Positions 160 through 7,027 of a stretch of DNA of 37,366 nt are shown piece by piece. Made by a program: the position numbers and the translations under genes. Source of the DNA: Leptolyngbyaceae cyanobacterium T60_A2020_046 (lineage in GTDB: Bacteria; Cyanobacteriota; Cyanobacteriia; Phormidesmidales; Phormidesmidaceae). The notes under the pieces are model-generated. The model worked only from the letters and a program-made list of their open reading frames with translations. It had not been told where the DNA came from and searched no databases. The DNA lies in the NCBI GenBank assembly GCA_015272155.1, contig JACYME010000248.1, positions 1 through 37,366 on the forward strand, read 5' to 3'. Position 1 is the stretch's first letter, and every line of letters starts with the position of its first letter.

Positions 160-2010
160 CTAAAGTTTTGCGCCGCAGTTCGGACAGAAGGTGTGGTTAG
201 AGGGATTTTGCGTGCCACACGCTCCACAGGCCACAACCCCAATCTCCTGTGCTTGGGAAACCGGCTTGGGTAGGCCAATCATCTGAGAGTTTGCCTTGCC
301 CGGAGCCACCATGGGGTAGCAGTTTTCATCGCGGCGCACGCGCACATCCATCAACACCGGGCCATCATAGGCCAGCATTTCAGCCACGCGCCGACGCAGC
401 TCGTCGCGCGACTTCACCAAAATGCCTTTGACCCCATAAGCCTGGGCCAGCAGCTCAAAGTCTGGCATGCCTGCCTCCATGTTGGAGGACGAGTAGCGCT
501 CACCATAGAAAGCTTGCTGCCACTGACGCACCATGCCTTGCCAGCCGTTATTGATAATCACGGTTTTCACATGGATGCCGTATTGAGCTAGGGTACCCAG
601 CTCTTGTAGGTTCATCTGGAAGCTGGCGTCACCGCTGATGCAGATCACTTCATCGTCGGGGCGACCGACCTTGGCTCCCATGGCGGCGGGCATCCCAAAG
701 CCCATCGTGCCCAGACCTGCGCTGGAAATCCAGCGGCGGGGGCCGTTTTTCAAAAACTGCGCTGACCACATTTGGTGCTGCCCCACGTCGGTGGTGTAGA
801 AGGCGTGGGGAGCTTGCCGACCCAGTTCGACAATGACTTCCTGGGGAGCCAGCATGTCGGTATAGGTAGGCACAACGAGGGGATAGTCTTGCCGCCAACG
901 CTCAATGCGATCGCACCATGCAGCGGTGCGATCGTGATCCACAGCATGGCCGTCTTCCTGGAGCCGTTGCAGCAGGGTTTGCAGCACTTGGCGCACATCT
1001 CCAACGATGGGCACTTCGGGGACGCGGTTTTTGCCCACTTCAGCAGGGTCAATATCGATATGGATGACCTTGGCTCGGGAGGCGAACTCGTCGAGTTTAC
1101 CCGTAACGCGATCGTCAAAGCGTGCCCCCACCGCAATCAGCAAATCACACTCGCTGACGGCAAAGTTGGCGTAGGCGGTACCGTGCATACCCAACATGCC
1201 AACTGCGAGGCGATGGTGCTCATCAAAAGCTCCCTTGCCCATGAGCGTGGTGGTGACGGGAATGTTGAAGTATTCCGCCAACTGCTGAATTTCGTCGTGG
1301 GCTCCGGCGGTAATTGCGCCACCGCCAACGTAGAGTAGGGGACGCTTTGCGGCCCGCAGCAGCCGCAGAGCGTGGGTAATTTGTCTGGGGTTGCCCTTGG
1401 TGGTGGGGCGATAGCCGGGTAAGCGCACGTCGCCCGGTTCGACGGGCACGTAGTCAAATTCCTCAAGGCCCACATCCTTGGGCACATCAATTAAGACCGG
1501 GCCAGGGCGACCACTTTGCGCAATGTAGAACGCTTCGGCCACAATTCGCGCCATGTGATTGGGATCGCGCACCACGTAGGAGTGCTTCACAATCGGCAAG
1601 GTGATGCCAAAAATATCCGTTTCTTGGAAGGCGTCGCTGCCGATCGCGGCTCGATTCACCTGCCCTGTAATCACCACCATCGGAACCGAGTCCATTGCGG
1701 CGGTGGCGATGCCCGTCACCAGGTTGGTTGCGCCGGGGCCAGAGGTGCCAAAGCAAACACCCACTTCGCCCGTGGCGCGGGCATAGCCGTCGGCGGCGTG
1801 GGCGGCTCCCTGCTCGTGGCGCACCAGAATATGGTTGATCCCGCCAGCGGCCTCGGCTCGGTAAAGCTCGTCATAAATGGGCAGAATAGCCCCACCCGGA
1901 TAGCCAAACACATACCGAACACCATGGCGTTTGAGACTATCGATGAGCGCGAACGCGCCAGTGGCACGCTGCATCGAAACCTTTTGTTGGGCTTGAACGG
2001 AGGAAGTCAT
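160..2010 (-). CDS. ilvB: Acetolactate synthase large subunit with C-terminal zinc ribbon
   Basis: A 616-residue ThDP enzyme that condenses two pyruvates, or pyruvate and 2-oxobutyrate, in branched-chain amino acid synthesis in the cytosol. The N-terminal pyrimidine-binding domain carries the catalytic glutamate in [16 protein letters not shown]. The middle domain is the FAD/DHAP-like domain. The C-terminal ThDP domain has the Mg/pyrophosphate motif as GDASFQMN, with GDA instead of the usual GDG, followed by [13 protein letters not shown]. Family members usually end soon after this domain. Here the last ~22 residues read C-G-A-C-G-T-Q followed by F-C-P-N-C-G-A-K-L, a four-cysteine zinc ribbon. 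The ATG at 2010 has no clear Shine-Dalgarno. No small regulatory subunit gene is adjacent. The enzyme assignment is firm; the role of the ribbon is unknown. Confidence 0.95.
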
Positions 2011-2874: not shown

Positions 2875-3396
2875 ATCTCATAAACCATACATTTCTTTAG
2901 GCTCGACGCTCTTCCTCAAAGTCTTACACTCATCGATATAAACTTAATTATCTTTCCGTGTCTTTTTGCAACCATTCGGACTTGATTCCTGAAGAGAAAA
3001 GGGTTTTTTTCTAAAACATAAATAGGAGCTGCTCAGTCATGGAGGACGATAGAAGCATCCCCAAAAAATAATGCTCTCAGCATGTGTTCAGAGAAAAATA
3101 TCTCGATGGGAAACAGGTATAGGATCAAACCTTAACAGGATTTAGAGCACTGAATTTAGGTTTCTAGCTTGCCATCGTAAATCTTTTCTTGGATTGCTCT
3201 GCCAGGCAATGCTGATTGGTTTTGCGAGGCATCCGGAGGGTGTAAAAGACAACAAAGTATGCCCCTATTGTTGAGCAGGTTTTGTATTCTGCACGTCTCC
3301 GTTGTCAGCTTTGAGTCGGCTGTGCTTGCCTCAATCCCAAGCGCACGCCGTTCAGATAGAGGAGTTGGCGTCACTAACTTATTCTGGAGTGGGATC
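2875..3396. promoter_or_regulatory. AT-rich divergent intergenic region
   Basis: This 522-bp region separates the minus-strand hydrolase from the plus-strand ComFB-type gene and is visibly richer in A and T than its surroundings, especially 2930-3080. It should hold both promoters. An AGGAG near 3026 precedes a 10-codon frame starting ATGGAGGACGAT, which may be chance. I see no longer gene with coding character. Confidence 0.45.
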
Positions 3397-3756
3397 ATGT
3401 CACAGGCGATTGTTAACTTAGCATTACCGGTGGTTACGGAGAAAATCGACGAAATTCTGGAGCATTACCCGGCTGCTCCCCATCGCGAAACCTTTACCTC
3501 CATGGATGTTCGCCAAAAGCTGGTGGCCTATGTTTTGACTCGCATGCCAGCTTTATATGCCACGGTTGAGGATGGCGGGACCTGTTCATTAAGCCATCCG
3601 GAGCTGTGTTATTCCACTGAGCAGCAGCGTCGGATGAAGCAGTTGATTCACCAAGGGATTCAACATTTGGTGAGTCAGCGCCAACTCCATCGCGAAACGC
3701 TGGGCAAGATGGCGACAGGCAACGCCCAGCTCACCCCGTCAAGCTGGTTTGGCTAG
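3397..3756 (+). CDS. ComFB-family protein (putative cyclic dinucleotide receptor)
   Basis: A 119-residue soluble protein with the late-competence ComFB fold: ALPVVTEKIDEILEHYP near the N-terminus, then MDVRQKLVAYVLTRMPALYA and a short variable tail. Cyanobacterial members of this family have been reported to bind c-di-GMP or c-di-AMP and to affect cell size or competence. That is family knowledge, not shown here. The start at 3397 is chosen because GGAGTGGG (3386-3393) sits just upstream and residues before it look non-coding. The histidine kinase gene follows on the same strand after 95 bp, so the two may be co-transcribed. I recall a similar pairing in Synechocystis (slr1970 beside slr1969/Hik24), but I could not check it. 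Confidence 0.8.
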   Translation: MSQAIVNLALPVVTEKIDEILEHYPAAPHRETFTSMDVRQKLVAYVLTRMPALYATVEDGGTCSLSHPELCYSTEQQRRMKQLIHQGIQHLVSQRQLHRETLGKMATGNAQLTPSSWFG

Positions 3757-3851: not shown

Positions 3852-5438
3852 ATGTCTCTGTCGCTGGTGTTGCGATCGCCTAGGAAGGCACCCGTGGAGG
3901 ACGATATTCGACCGACCCTAAGCGACTTGGTCAGGCAAGTGAATGGTGACTGGCAGTCAGCCACCGCTTCCGCAGGCAGTAGCTGGGGAGAGGCGCGTCG
4001 TGAACAGGCGGCGCGGCTTTCGGCTGAGGCAGAGTGGCGGGCCGCGATCGCAACCCTGACCGAAACCTTGGCCGCCCATCCCCGATGGACGGGGCAAGCG
4101 GCGGGAGCATCTGCCCGTGAGGGCATTGTGATTGCAGGGCCGTTGCCAATATTGACCGATCCAGAGCTAACCCAGCGCTTTGAAACCTGGGTAGTGACGC
4201 CCCAAGCCCTGGCAGATGCGCTAAATGGGCAGCAACGGCTTTTGCCATCGTCAGGGCCTGCGCGATCGCGATCGCTGGTGCCGATTCAAGCCTTACCCCT
4301 CGTGGCAGGCGATCCGCTGTTGGAGGAGCGCTTTTGTTTGGTGCTTACCCCAACGATGAGCTTGGTGCTCGTGCTGGGCCGCCCCACGGGCGAAGACGTT
4401 CAGTTTCAATATTCCTTTGATTCCCAAGCGTTCCATCATCTGTGGGCGCGGGTGAGATCGCGCATTCAACCTACCGGAAAAGACAAGCTCACTGCTCTCG
4501 AACAATCCTTGAACCAGTGGTGCCCACCGCTGCCCGATTTTCGGCTGATCACCTACTTCAGTCAGCGGTTGCTTGCCCATTTGCCCCATCGCGTCAGTGC
4601 AGAGGCACTCACGGCGGAGGATCGCAATGGTGTGCAATTTGCCCAGTGGGCAACGGTGCCAACCCCGCAGGTACAGGCGGCGGCAGCAGGTTCTCCCGCT
4701 GAGGTAGACTCCTCAAGTCCCTGCCATGATGCAGAGTTGTTGCAGGCGATGACCCATGAAATTCGGACGCCACTGACGACAATTCGCACCCTGACGCGAT
4801 CGCTCATGCGTCGAAAGGATATTTCAAAAGAGGTGCTCAAGCGCTTGCAGCGTATCGATCAGGAATGCACTCAGCAGATCGATCGCTTCAATCTCATTTT
4901 CCGAGCGGTGGAACTGGAAACAACCCACCGCGATCGCCCCACTTCGCCCCTCGCCCCCATCGCCCTGGCCCACATCTTTCAGGATGCCATTCCACGCTGG
5001 CAGCAGCAGGCGAGCCGCCGGAACCTCAGCCTGGATGTGACGCTGCCGCCCGATCTGCCCACAGTGAGCAGCGATCCCACCTTGCTAAATCAGGTGTTGA
5101 TGGGTGTGGTGGAGTGGTTTACCCAATGTTTACCCGCCCAGAGCCACATTCAAATGCGGGTGATGCTGGCGGGGTCGCAGCTTAAGCTCCAGTTTGAAGC
5201 TCAGCCCAACGAATCGGCGGCATGTCCGTGGTCTGAAACATCCCAGGCAGAACGTCCTCCCCTGAGATCGCTGGGTCAACTGCTGATGTTTGCGCCAGAA
5301 ACCGGCGGCGTGAGCCTCAACCTGAACGTGACGAAAAACCTGTTCCAATCTTTGGGGGGCAAGCTCACGCTCAAACAACGCCCCCAACAGGGCGATGTGT
5401 TGACGGTCTTCTTGCCCCTGGAAACCCGCGAAATTTGA
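3852..5438 (+). CDS. Histidine kinase with intact His but degenerate ATP-binding domain
   Basis: A 528-residue cytosolic protein with no membrane segment. Residues ~80-205 form a sensor-like region similar in layout to the N-terminus of the converging kinase. The HisKA dimerisation region has an intact H-box, AMTHEIRTPLTTIR, with phosphoacceptor His302 (codon at 4755). The C-terminal region aligns with HATPase_c only loosely. The N-box position reads LNQVLMGVVEWFTQ without the catalytic asparagine. No DxGxG is visible. The G2 region reads GGVSLNLNVTKNL. It should therefore be phosphorylatable but unlikely to bind ATP. The ATG at 3852 follows GGAGAG (3843-3848); a GTG at 3795 is in frame but less likely. 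It ends 62 bp from the stop of the opposing kinase. Confidence 0.85.
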   Translation: MSLSLVLRSPRKAPVEDDIRPTLSDLVRQVNGDWQSATASAGSSWGEARREQAARLSAEAEWRAAIATLTETLAAHPRWTGQAAGASAREGIVIAGPLPILTDPELTQRFETWVVTPQALADALNGQQRLLPSSGPARSRSLVPIQALPLVAGDPLLEERFCLVLTPTMSLVLVLGRPTGEDVQFQYSFDSQAFHHLWARVRSRIQPTGKDKLTALEQSLNQWCPPLPDFRLITYFSQRLLAHLPHRVSAEALTAEDRNGVQFAQWATVPTPQVQAAAAGSPAEVDSSSPCHDAELLQAMTHEIRTPLTTIRTLTRSLMRRKDISKEVLKRLQRIDQECTQQIDRFNLIFRAVELETTHRDRPTSPLAPIALAHIFQDAIPRWQQQASRRNLSLDVTLPPDLPTVSSDPTLLNQVLMGVVEWFTQCLPAQSHIQMRVMLAGSQLKLQFEAQPNESAACPWSETSQAERPPLRSLGQLLMFAPETGGVSLNLNVTKNLFQSLGGKLTLKQRPQQGDVLTVFLPLETREI

Positions 5439-5500
5439 CCGCGCAACTTGGCGGTCTCTCGCCAGGGAAACCTGTGACGCTGTGCGCGATCGCGTGTCCA

Positions 5501-7027
5501 CTATGGGGACGAGGCAGGGGAGCGATGGGCGATGGGTAACAACACCTGAAAGTGGCTGCCTGTTCCAACTTGGCTCTCAACGCGCACTTCGCCTCCACAG
5601 TAGAGCAACAACTGCTGCACAATGGTGAGGCCGAGCCCTGCCCCTTCCTCCTCTTGGTTGACCTGCCGCCCCCGATAAAAGTGGTCAAAGATGCGCGGCA
5701 ATTCTGAGGCTGGGATGCCGATGCCCGTATCTTTCACATGCAGGGCGATCGCGTCGGGGCTGGCCACCTGGGCCGTCACCCATACTTCGCCACCGGATTC
5801 GGTGTACTTGATGCTGTTGCTCAGCAGATGGATGACAATTTGCCGCAGCCATGCCTCCGGGCAACTGGTCGCAGGCAAGTTGTCGGGAATCGTGTAGGCC
5901 AGGCGGACGCCTTTTTCCTGGGCAATGGGCTGATAGGTGCTGACCACACCGGGGACGACATCAAAGAGGTTGATGGGGCGCGGTTTGATAGTGGCGAGGC
6001 TTTGCTCGATTTGTAAAAGATCGAGGACGCCATTGATGAGGGTGCTTTGGCGATCGCACTCGTGGCTCACCATATCCAAATAGCGCTGGCGCTGGGGGGG
6101 CTTGAGGTTGGGAGATGACAGCAACGGTAGCGCAGTTTTGATGGTGGATAGGGGCGTGCGCAACGCCTGCCCCACCGTGTTTAAAAAGTCGTCCTTGAGG
6201 CGCAGGGTATTCATCAGCGCCTCGTTTTGGGTGGAAAGTTGATTGGCCGTCATCGCCTGTCGCCGGAACGATCGCGTTTGCTGGCGCAGATGTTCTTGCT
6301 GCTGGCACACCCGCATCACCAACCCCTCTAACACCTGGGAATCGAGCTGGGTCGGATTCGGGTTGAGGTCTGTCCACCGGGCGATCGCGTCAGCAACGAC
6401 AGGATTTTCAGGATATTCGGCCAAACTCTCGGTCAATAGGCCGTGAATGCTTGCGATCGCGGACTGAAGAGCAGCGGGTTGTACCGTGAAGCAAAAATCC
6501 ACCTTGGCCTGGGTTGCACTCGCGCTGGGATCATCTTGGTGCAGCGTGGTGACCATCTCTTGGGGTTCCGTCCGACGCTGTGCCAAAACCATCGCCGAGC
6601 CGATCGAGGTCAGGGCGACCAGCCCATATTCTCCTCGCAGAGGTCGGCTACGGGGTAACGGAATCGCCCAACACCAATCGGCGACGAAGGGCTGGCGTGT
6701 AAACAGGTAAATCGTGGGCTGGGGATAAACGGCCTCAGCATAGCGCTGGAGGTCTTCCAGCCAAGGGCTACCGCTGGGCAGCTTGGCCCAAATCACCCCC
6801 GTACACTGGTGGTCGGCTAACCCTGCAAGAAAGGCTTGCAGGGAAGCCTTGAATCCCTTGGGGGAAATCAGGACGGAGGGCTGGGTTGCGGGGGGGGCTT
6901 GCCCCAACCATTGAAACATTGGCAACCGCGGGGAAGAACAACGTCGGACGGGCGGCAACACCAAGATCGCCGCCTCAGGGCAGCACGACTCAAGGATGGT
7001 GTCAGCCGTCGGCCAAGATTCCCTCAA
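5501..7027 (-). CDS. Histidine-kinase-like ATPase with Gln replacing the phosphoacceptor His
   Basis: About 508 residues, cytosolic. Residues ~45-195 look like a DICT-type sensor region found in cyanobacterial signalling proteins. A helical linker leads to the HisKA region, where the H-box reads NTVGQALRTPLSTIK: the histidine is Gln287 (CAG, minus strand, 6169-6167). The HATPase_c domain is complete: N-box HLLSNSIKYT (N404), G1 DTGIGI (433-438), F-box IFDHFYRG and G2 GAGLGL (462-467). It should bind ATP but cannot accept phosphate in cis. The start is uncertain: TTG at 7027 directly follows an upstream in-frame stop region, and ATG at 6919 is the first methionine codon. It lies 79 bp after murE on the same strand, so read-through from murE is possible. 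Confidence 0.85.
   Translation of the reverse strand: MRESWPTADTILESCCPEAAILVLPPVRRCSSPRLPMFQWLGQAPPATQPSVLISPKGFKASLQAFLAGLADHQCTGVIWAKLPSGSPWLEDLQRYAEAVYPQPTIYLFTRQPFVADWCWAIPLPRSRPLRGEYGLVALTSIGSAMVLAQRRTEPQEMVTTLHQDDPSASATQAKVDFCFTVQPAALQSAIASIHGLLTESLAEYPENPVVADAIARWTDLNPNPTQLDSQVLEGLVMRVCQQQEHLRQQTRSFRRQAMTANQLSTQNEALMNTLRLKDDFLNTVGQALRTPLSTIKTALPLLSSPNLKPPQRQRYLDMVSHECDRQSTLINGVLDLLQIEQSLATIKPRPINLFDVVPGVVSTYQPIAQEKGVRLAYTIPDNLPATSCPEAWLRQIVIHLLSNSIKYTESGGEVWVTAQVASPDAIALHVKDTGIGIPASELPRIFDHFYRGRQVNQEEEGAGLGLTIVQQLLLYCGGEVRVESQVGTGSHFQVLLPIAHRSPASSP

Follow-up and report, generated by a model that had tools for sequence, protein, structure and literature searches.

Two convergent genes in the window analysed here, a 37,366-nucleotide stretch of a Leptolyngbyaceae cyanobacterium (strain T60_A2020_046, contig JACYME010000248.1), encode histidine kinases whose defects, judged from the sequences of their families, are complementary, ancient and under selection rather than local accidents. 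The plus-strand protein keeps the phosphoacceptor histidine and has lost the ATP-binding boxes, while the minus-strand protein keeps an intact ATP site and has no histidine, and their motifs imply that at least one of the two must act with another protein and not alone. We favour a reading, with a probability of about 0.4, in which the plus-strand protein is a phosphoacceptor fed in trans and the minus-strand protein is its donor wherever it is encoded. The positions of both proteins and their convergent order, re-read from the coordinates, are as the earlier note on this DNA gave them, with approximately 62 bp between the two stops:

3852 to 5438, plus strand: "acceptor" protein, 528 amino acids, stop included in the interval; DICT-like sensor, HisKA domain and degenerate ATP domain
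3999 to 4586, plus strand: divergent DICT-like sensor, residues 50-245, by profile-profile match, with no Pfam match
4734 to 4895, plus strand: HisKA (DHp) domain, residues 295-348, Pfam 37.2 bits (cut-off 26.9)
4755 to 4757, plus strand: codon CAT of His302, the predicted phosphoacceptor, in the H-box MTHEIRTPL
4953 to 5423, plus strand: degenerate ATP domain with no N-box asparagine, DxGxG or GxGxG, histidine kinase fold kept (Pfam, family alignment, Foldseek)
5501 to 7027, minus strand: "donor" protein, 508 amino acids counted from TTG; DICT domain, HisKA domain without histidine, intact HATPase_c
5531 to 5857, minus strand: HATPase_c with N404, D433-T-G-I-G, F450 and G462-x-G-x-G, Pfam 94.4 bits
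6002 to 6196, minus strand: HisKA (DHp) domain without the histidine, Pfam 41.2 bits
6167 to 6169, minus strand: codon CAG of Gln287 at the phosphoacceptor position, H-box VGQALRTPL
6572 to 6880, minus strand: DICT sensor domain, Pfam PF10069, 42.7 bits (cut-off 23.8)

The kinase cores of the two proteins align at 20% identity. Because orthologue alignments of the minus-strand protein begin at about residue 34-51, Met37 (position 6919) is a likelier start than the TTG, and translation from there would make Gln287 residue 251.

The earlier note had described the plus-strand protein as having an H-box with His302 and an ATP domain without the N-box asparagine or DxGxG and with an eroded G2 box, and each element of this description extends to the family. 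The Pfam profiles for HisKA and HATPase_c were run on both proteins; in the plus-strand protein the HATPase_c match reaches 15 bits, below the cut-off of 26.4, and covers the last 42 residues only. His302 occurs in all 112 aligned family members that span the site (and in 66/66 of set A2), accompanied by Glu303 in 109/112 and Thr306 in 112/112, and H302, T306, P307, L308, I311, Q342 and R345 are invariant within the HisKA domain. The N-box asparagine is found in 0/112 aligned members, and DxGxG and GxGxG likewise in none. Of the features of a self-sufficient HisKA kinase, the protein thus has the H-box histidine and lacks the N, G1 and G2 boxes; its motifs indicate that, without the usual ATP binding, it cannot be the self-sufficient kinase that its annotation suggests. 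The family's former ATP domain has lost its ATP site and is nevertheless still constrained, with W383, G441, G485 and G502 invariant among the 112 aligned members despite the missing boxes. An AlphaFold2 model of the protein (pLDDT 82.4) keeps the kinase fold, and the solved structures nearest to it in Foldseek are ZraS, CpxA, RetS, the RetS-GacS complex and DivL. RetS and GacS make kinase-kinase contact through their DHp domains and DivL is a kinase-like protein without the histidine; we know of no case in these systems in which one partner has lost the acceptor and the other the ATP site. In HisKA proteins the acidic residue that follows the H-box histidine is needed only for kinase activity, and the H-box threonine only for phosphatase activity (PMC3510030). 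The retention of Glu303 although the ATP site is gone points to phosphorylation by the ATP domain of another protein, and we consider it probable, if well short of assured, that His302 is phosphorylated in trans by some ATP domain.

The minus-strand protein presents the opposite pattern. Its H-box carries Gln287 where histidine belongs and its N, G1, F and G2 boxes are complete, as had been read from the window alone, and the same holds among 98 distinct homologues, in which position 287 is occupied by Gln (92), Arg (3), Leu (2) or Glu (1) and never by His. N404, D433 and G435 are present in 98/98 and G462, G464 and G466 in 97/98, and five of the six members with Arg, Leu or Glu at 287 keep an intact ATP site. 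It follows from this stricter conservation of the ATP boxes than of position 287 that the ATP site is what selection keeps. Measured against a self-sufficient HisKA kinase, the family has the N, G1 and G2 boxes and lacks the H-box histidine (0/98), and its ATP site would need a histidine elsewhere. Glu288 is found in 94/98 members but is Ala in the protein of the window, and Thr291 is found in 85/98. At the junction of the DHp and ATP domains (5890-5970, minus strand, approximately residues 354-379), the consensus VPGVVSTYQPLAQEKGI is almost invariant in the family, which is unusual for a linker and is possibly a contact surface. In one Leptolyngbya genome (sp. SIOISBB, G288:C1:4443019-4444393) the minus gene lies in two reading frames beside an intact plus gene, reflecting either real decay or an assembly error; the minus gene is absent from a close relative (G057).

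The resemblance between the two sensor regions that had been noticed by eye is substantiated by a single profile-profile comparison, in which the N-terminal regions of the two families match with 96.7% probability (E = 3e-10), the stretch of the plus-family sensor at approximately residues 141-245 giving the best match. Pfam recognises DICT in the minus-strand protein only, with no match in the plus-strand protein. The genome also encodes a complete DICT kinase (L257), with both the histidine and the ATP boxes. DICT proteins of approximately 465-490 amino acids without kinase motifs and with very strong DICT scores (L238, L240, L241, L245, L249-L251 and L254-L256) occur in the same genomes and are possibly DICT cyclases or regulators.

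Across 291 genomes of the cyanobacterial class, a plus-family orthologue was found in 278 at E <= 1e-30, and a looser threshold adds two more (G070 and G251), giving about 280 or 281. The main group without one comprises six genomes of a single genus (G016, G034, G047, G060, G080 and G090; family f16, genus g26). The plus gene is kept even in genomes of 1.7 Mb. The minus family is present in about 123 of the sampled genomes; mapped on the plus-family tree, it switches between present and absent about 12 times, and at least four of these switches are forced. When the kinase cores are placed in a tree, either family occupies one side of a strongly supported branch, which fits a single ancient origin of each defect; because both defects are fixed family-wide and the families are separated in the tree, chance or local decay is excluded, and a local pseudogene or sequencing error was ruled out on the same fixation. 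A sister relationship of the two families is not claimed, as it has a support of 63 in a DHp-only tree and does not appear in the full tree. The earlier note had made signalling dependent on pairing and had named orthologues that commonly lack their partner as evidence to the contrary. Such orthologues are common in one direction: the minus family was seen without the plus family once in about 123 genomes, in a 1060-contig draft, but the plus family occurs without the minus family in roughly 150 genomes, with its H-box intact. Prochlorococcus is among the latter. The other kinases found in Prochlorococcus-type genomes, SasA, NblS, PhoR and Hik2 (named by their H-boxes and size), all have the histidine, and none of these kinases is a His-less donor for the plus-family protein.

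Linkage was another of the proposed checks. In six families of the sample the two genes are convergent neighbours separated by less than 300 bp, the minus gene lies within 9 kb of the plus gene in 21/80 named loci, and the linked pairs include those of Leptolyngbya sp. PCC 6406, Gloeocapsopsis, Chlorogloeopsis and Nostoc. They are within 30 kb of each other in 29/122 genomes, and a naive linkage test was hugely significant. However, murE, a hydrolase, ilvB and ComFB lie near the plus gene in 19, 15, 14 and 12 of 68 named loci, respectively. Since these genes are found there nearly as often as the minus gene, conservation is block-wide: the adjacency recurs but is no stronger than background synteny or the conservation of housekeeping neighbours, and linkage as proof of function lost most of its weight to this control. 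Covariation fared no better as proof of a heterodimer, as strongly coupled DHp-DHp column pairs amount to 3.1% between the two families versus 2.6% and 3.0% between either family and NblS of the same genomes, and the apparent enrichment vanished. The DHp domains of both proteins do have equal spacing of helix 2 and share an ECxxQ signature that none of the kinases used for comparison has, some of these being from the window's own genome. No dedicated response regulator was found beside the pair among the conserved neighbours. Immediately upstream of the plus-strand kinase, on the same strand (3259-3756), lies a protein identified by eye as ComFB-like, and a member of its family has this place in 12 of the 68 named loci. 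A 2025 report describes ComFB as a receptor for c-di-AMP that competence requires (PMC12313861), and the neighbour offers a possible connection to the pathway. Further away (160-2010, minus strand) is an acetolactate synthase-like enzyme whose C-terminal CxxC...CxxC tail resembles a fused zinc ribbon.

Precedents exist for complementation in trans and also against it. A heterodimer of EnvZ H243A and a G2-box mutant complements, phosphorylating in trans (PMC4734776); the two kinds of defect are identical to those of the pair described here, although in EnvZ they are laboratory mutations of one protein and here they mark two natural families. ArcB and EvgS mutants with such defects fail to complement and phosphorylate in cis (PMC4734776), as does MtrB H305Q with N419D (PMC5956149), a combination close to the natural configuration. 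CheA3 and CheA4 of Rhodobacter sphaeroides carry acceptor and ATP domain on separate proteins; neither can autophosphorylate without the other, and dephosphorylation of the regulator is a further activity of the acceptor protein (PMC3591291). The cyanobacterial pair resembles them in dividing the two functions between two proteins, here as far as motifs tell, but CheA3 and CheA4 are of the CheA type, with a separate P1 phosphoacceptor domain and whole domains missing, whereas the HisKA-type proteins described here have all their domains, which point changes or erosion have inactivated; phosphorylation in trans is experimental for the former and inferred for the latter. Hik36-Hik43 (PilL-N/PilL-C) of Synechocystis is likewise a cyanobacterial split histidine kinase encoded by two genes (PMC7656254), but this belongs to the CheA family, has HPt and CheW-interaction domains, sits in the tax3/pilG cluster and has neither DICT nor HisKA. 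In the two proteins described here Pfam finds no domains other than HisKA, HATPase_c and DICT, and none of the CheA domains (P1/HPt, P3, CheW-like P5). Hik2/chloroplast sensor kinase is soluble and present in nearly all cyanobacteria, with a plant form that lacks the histidine (PMC4751278, PMC6949291). It was ruled out as the identity of the plus-strand protein: Hik2 has a GAF domain, an HQLRNPL H-box and a working ATP domain and autophosphorylates, whereas the plus-strand protein has no GAF match in Pfam, and a Prochlorococcus-type genome encodes a separate HQLRNPL kinase in addition to its plus-family protein. In a 2013 survey, 3.66% of HisKA proteins had no HATPase domain; splits were suggested there, and no pair was named (PMC3591291). 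In the literature searched, mostly outside subscription journals, no paper was found on either family, on a cyanobacterial HisKA pseudokinase or on DICT kinases; split kinases are known for CheA, and a natural HisKA pair is not documented there.

The preferred reading would make the plus-strand protein a dedicated phosphoacceptor subunit that senses through its DICT-like region and dimerises through its DHp helices. His302 would receive phosphate only from the ATP domain of another protein, and the intact HExRT motif would serve to hand it to a response regulator or to remove it from one. Where encoded, the minus-strand protein would be the likeliest donor, binding ATP, pairing through its related DHp helices and phosphorylating His302 in trans, much as in the EnvZ complementation experiment but in nature; genomes without it would use another donor or a form of action that needs no phosphorylation. 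A donor role is favoured by the complementary fixed defects, the retained Glu303 and Thr306, the homologous sensors, the shared ECxxQ and the rarity of the minus family on its own. Against it count the roughly 150 genomes with the plus family only, the synteny and covariation controls and the cis-acting mutants, as does the conserved Glu288 of the minus family, a residue for which a pure ATP donor should have no use. Of the heterodimer proposed in the earlier note, in which one partner gives ATP and the other the acceptor, the division of functions agrees with the fixed defects and the EnvZ precedent, but obligate pairing with this partner is not supported.

Other explanations account for parts of the same data. 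The phosphate of the plus-strand protein might come from a different, complete histidine kinase, or in reverse from a response regulator, and the minus-strand protein would then be an independent ATP-binding modulator with a common history but a reaction of its own. His302 and Glu303 are kept in all plus lineages, with or without the minus-strand protein, and the only candidate donors in Prochlorococcus are SasA, NblS, PhoR and Hik2; RetS and LadS are reported to form a multikinase network in which they interact with GacS (PMC4866733, PMC5992135). We nevertheless regard this as rather unlikely, as the near-invariant ATP site of a His-less family would then have no substrate, and as it requires a type of kinase-to-kinase phosphorylation that is uncommon. 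It is somewhat less likely still that neither protein makes phosphohistidine with the other, the plus-strand protein serving a response regulator, independently of ATP, as phosphatase, scaffold or HPt-like protein and the minus-strand protein being a DivL-like allosteric pseudokinase that reads ATP/ADP. The invariance of the phosphatase residue Thr306, the presence of DivL and RetS among the structural neighbours and the working of the plus-strand protein without its partner in half of the genomes would all suit such roles; yet phosphatase activity needs no acidic residue beside the histidine (PMC3510030), and here Glu303 is near-invariant and His302 invariant.

The minus-strand protein could instead be a dedicated phosphatase, with Gln287 facing the response regulator and positioning water while nucleotide binding by the ATP domain tunes the activity. 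CheZ uses its catalytic glutamine to position water, and the frequencies of Gln287, Glu288 and Thr291 in the family are compatible with such chemistry. Against the idea, some members with an intact ATP site have Arg or Leu in place of the glutamine, and the ATP site is more strictly conserved than the glutamine itself; we consider this role improbable. The proposal that both genes are decaying kinases heading for loss draws on the split minus gene of the SIOISBB genome and its absence from the close relative, but is contradicted by the conservation data: the opposite defects are fixed family-wide, the remaining motifs are strongly conserved and the plus gene survives even in genomes of 1.7 Mb. 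This makes decay a very remote prospect.

On the basis of domain counts and models, the split HisKA layout has been predicted to give rise to switch-like responses (PMC3591291). Reciprocal, ancient, point-type losses in paralogous DICT kinases may, as a tentative extension of the preferred reading, represent a HisKA kinase split without separation of its domains: an obligate acceptor that nearly all cyanobacteria keep would be joined in about half of them by a His-less ATP donor, and the phosphorylated form would arise only when the two sensors meet. In Prochlorococcus and similar lineages the acceptor would have been re-wired to a different kinase. The plus-strand protein is one of the few sensor kinases kept even in the most reduced photosynthetic genomes, and it is kept without the usual ATP binding. 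If the minus-strand protein is its donor, the two would constitute a natural split HisKA kinase.
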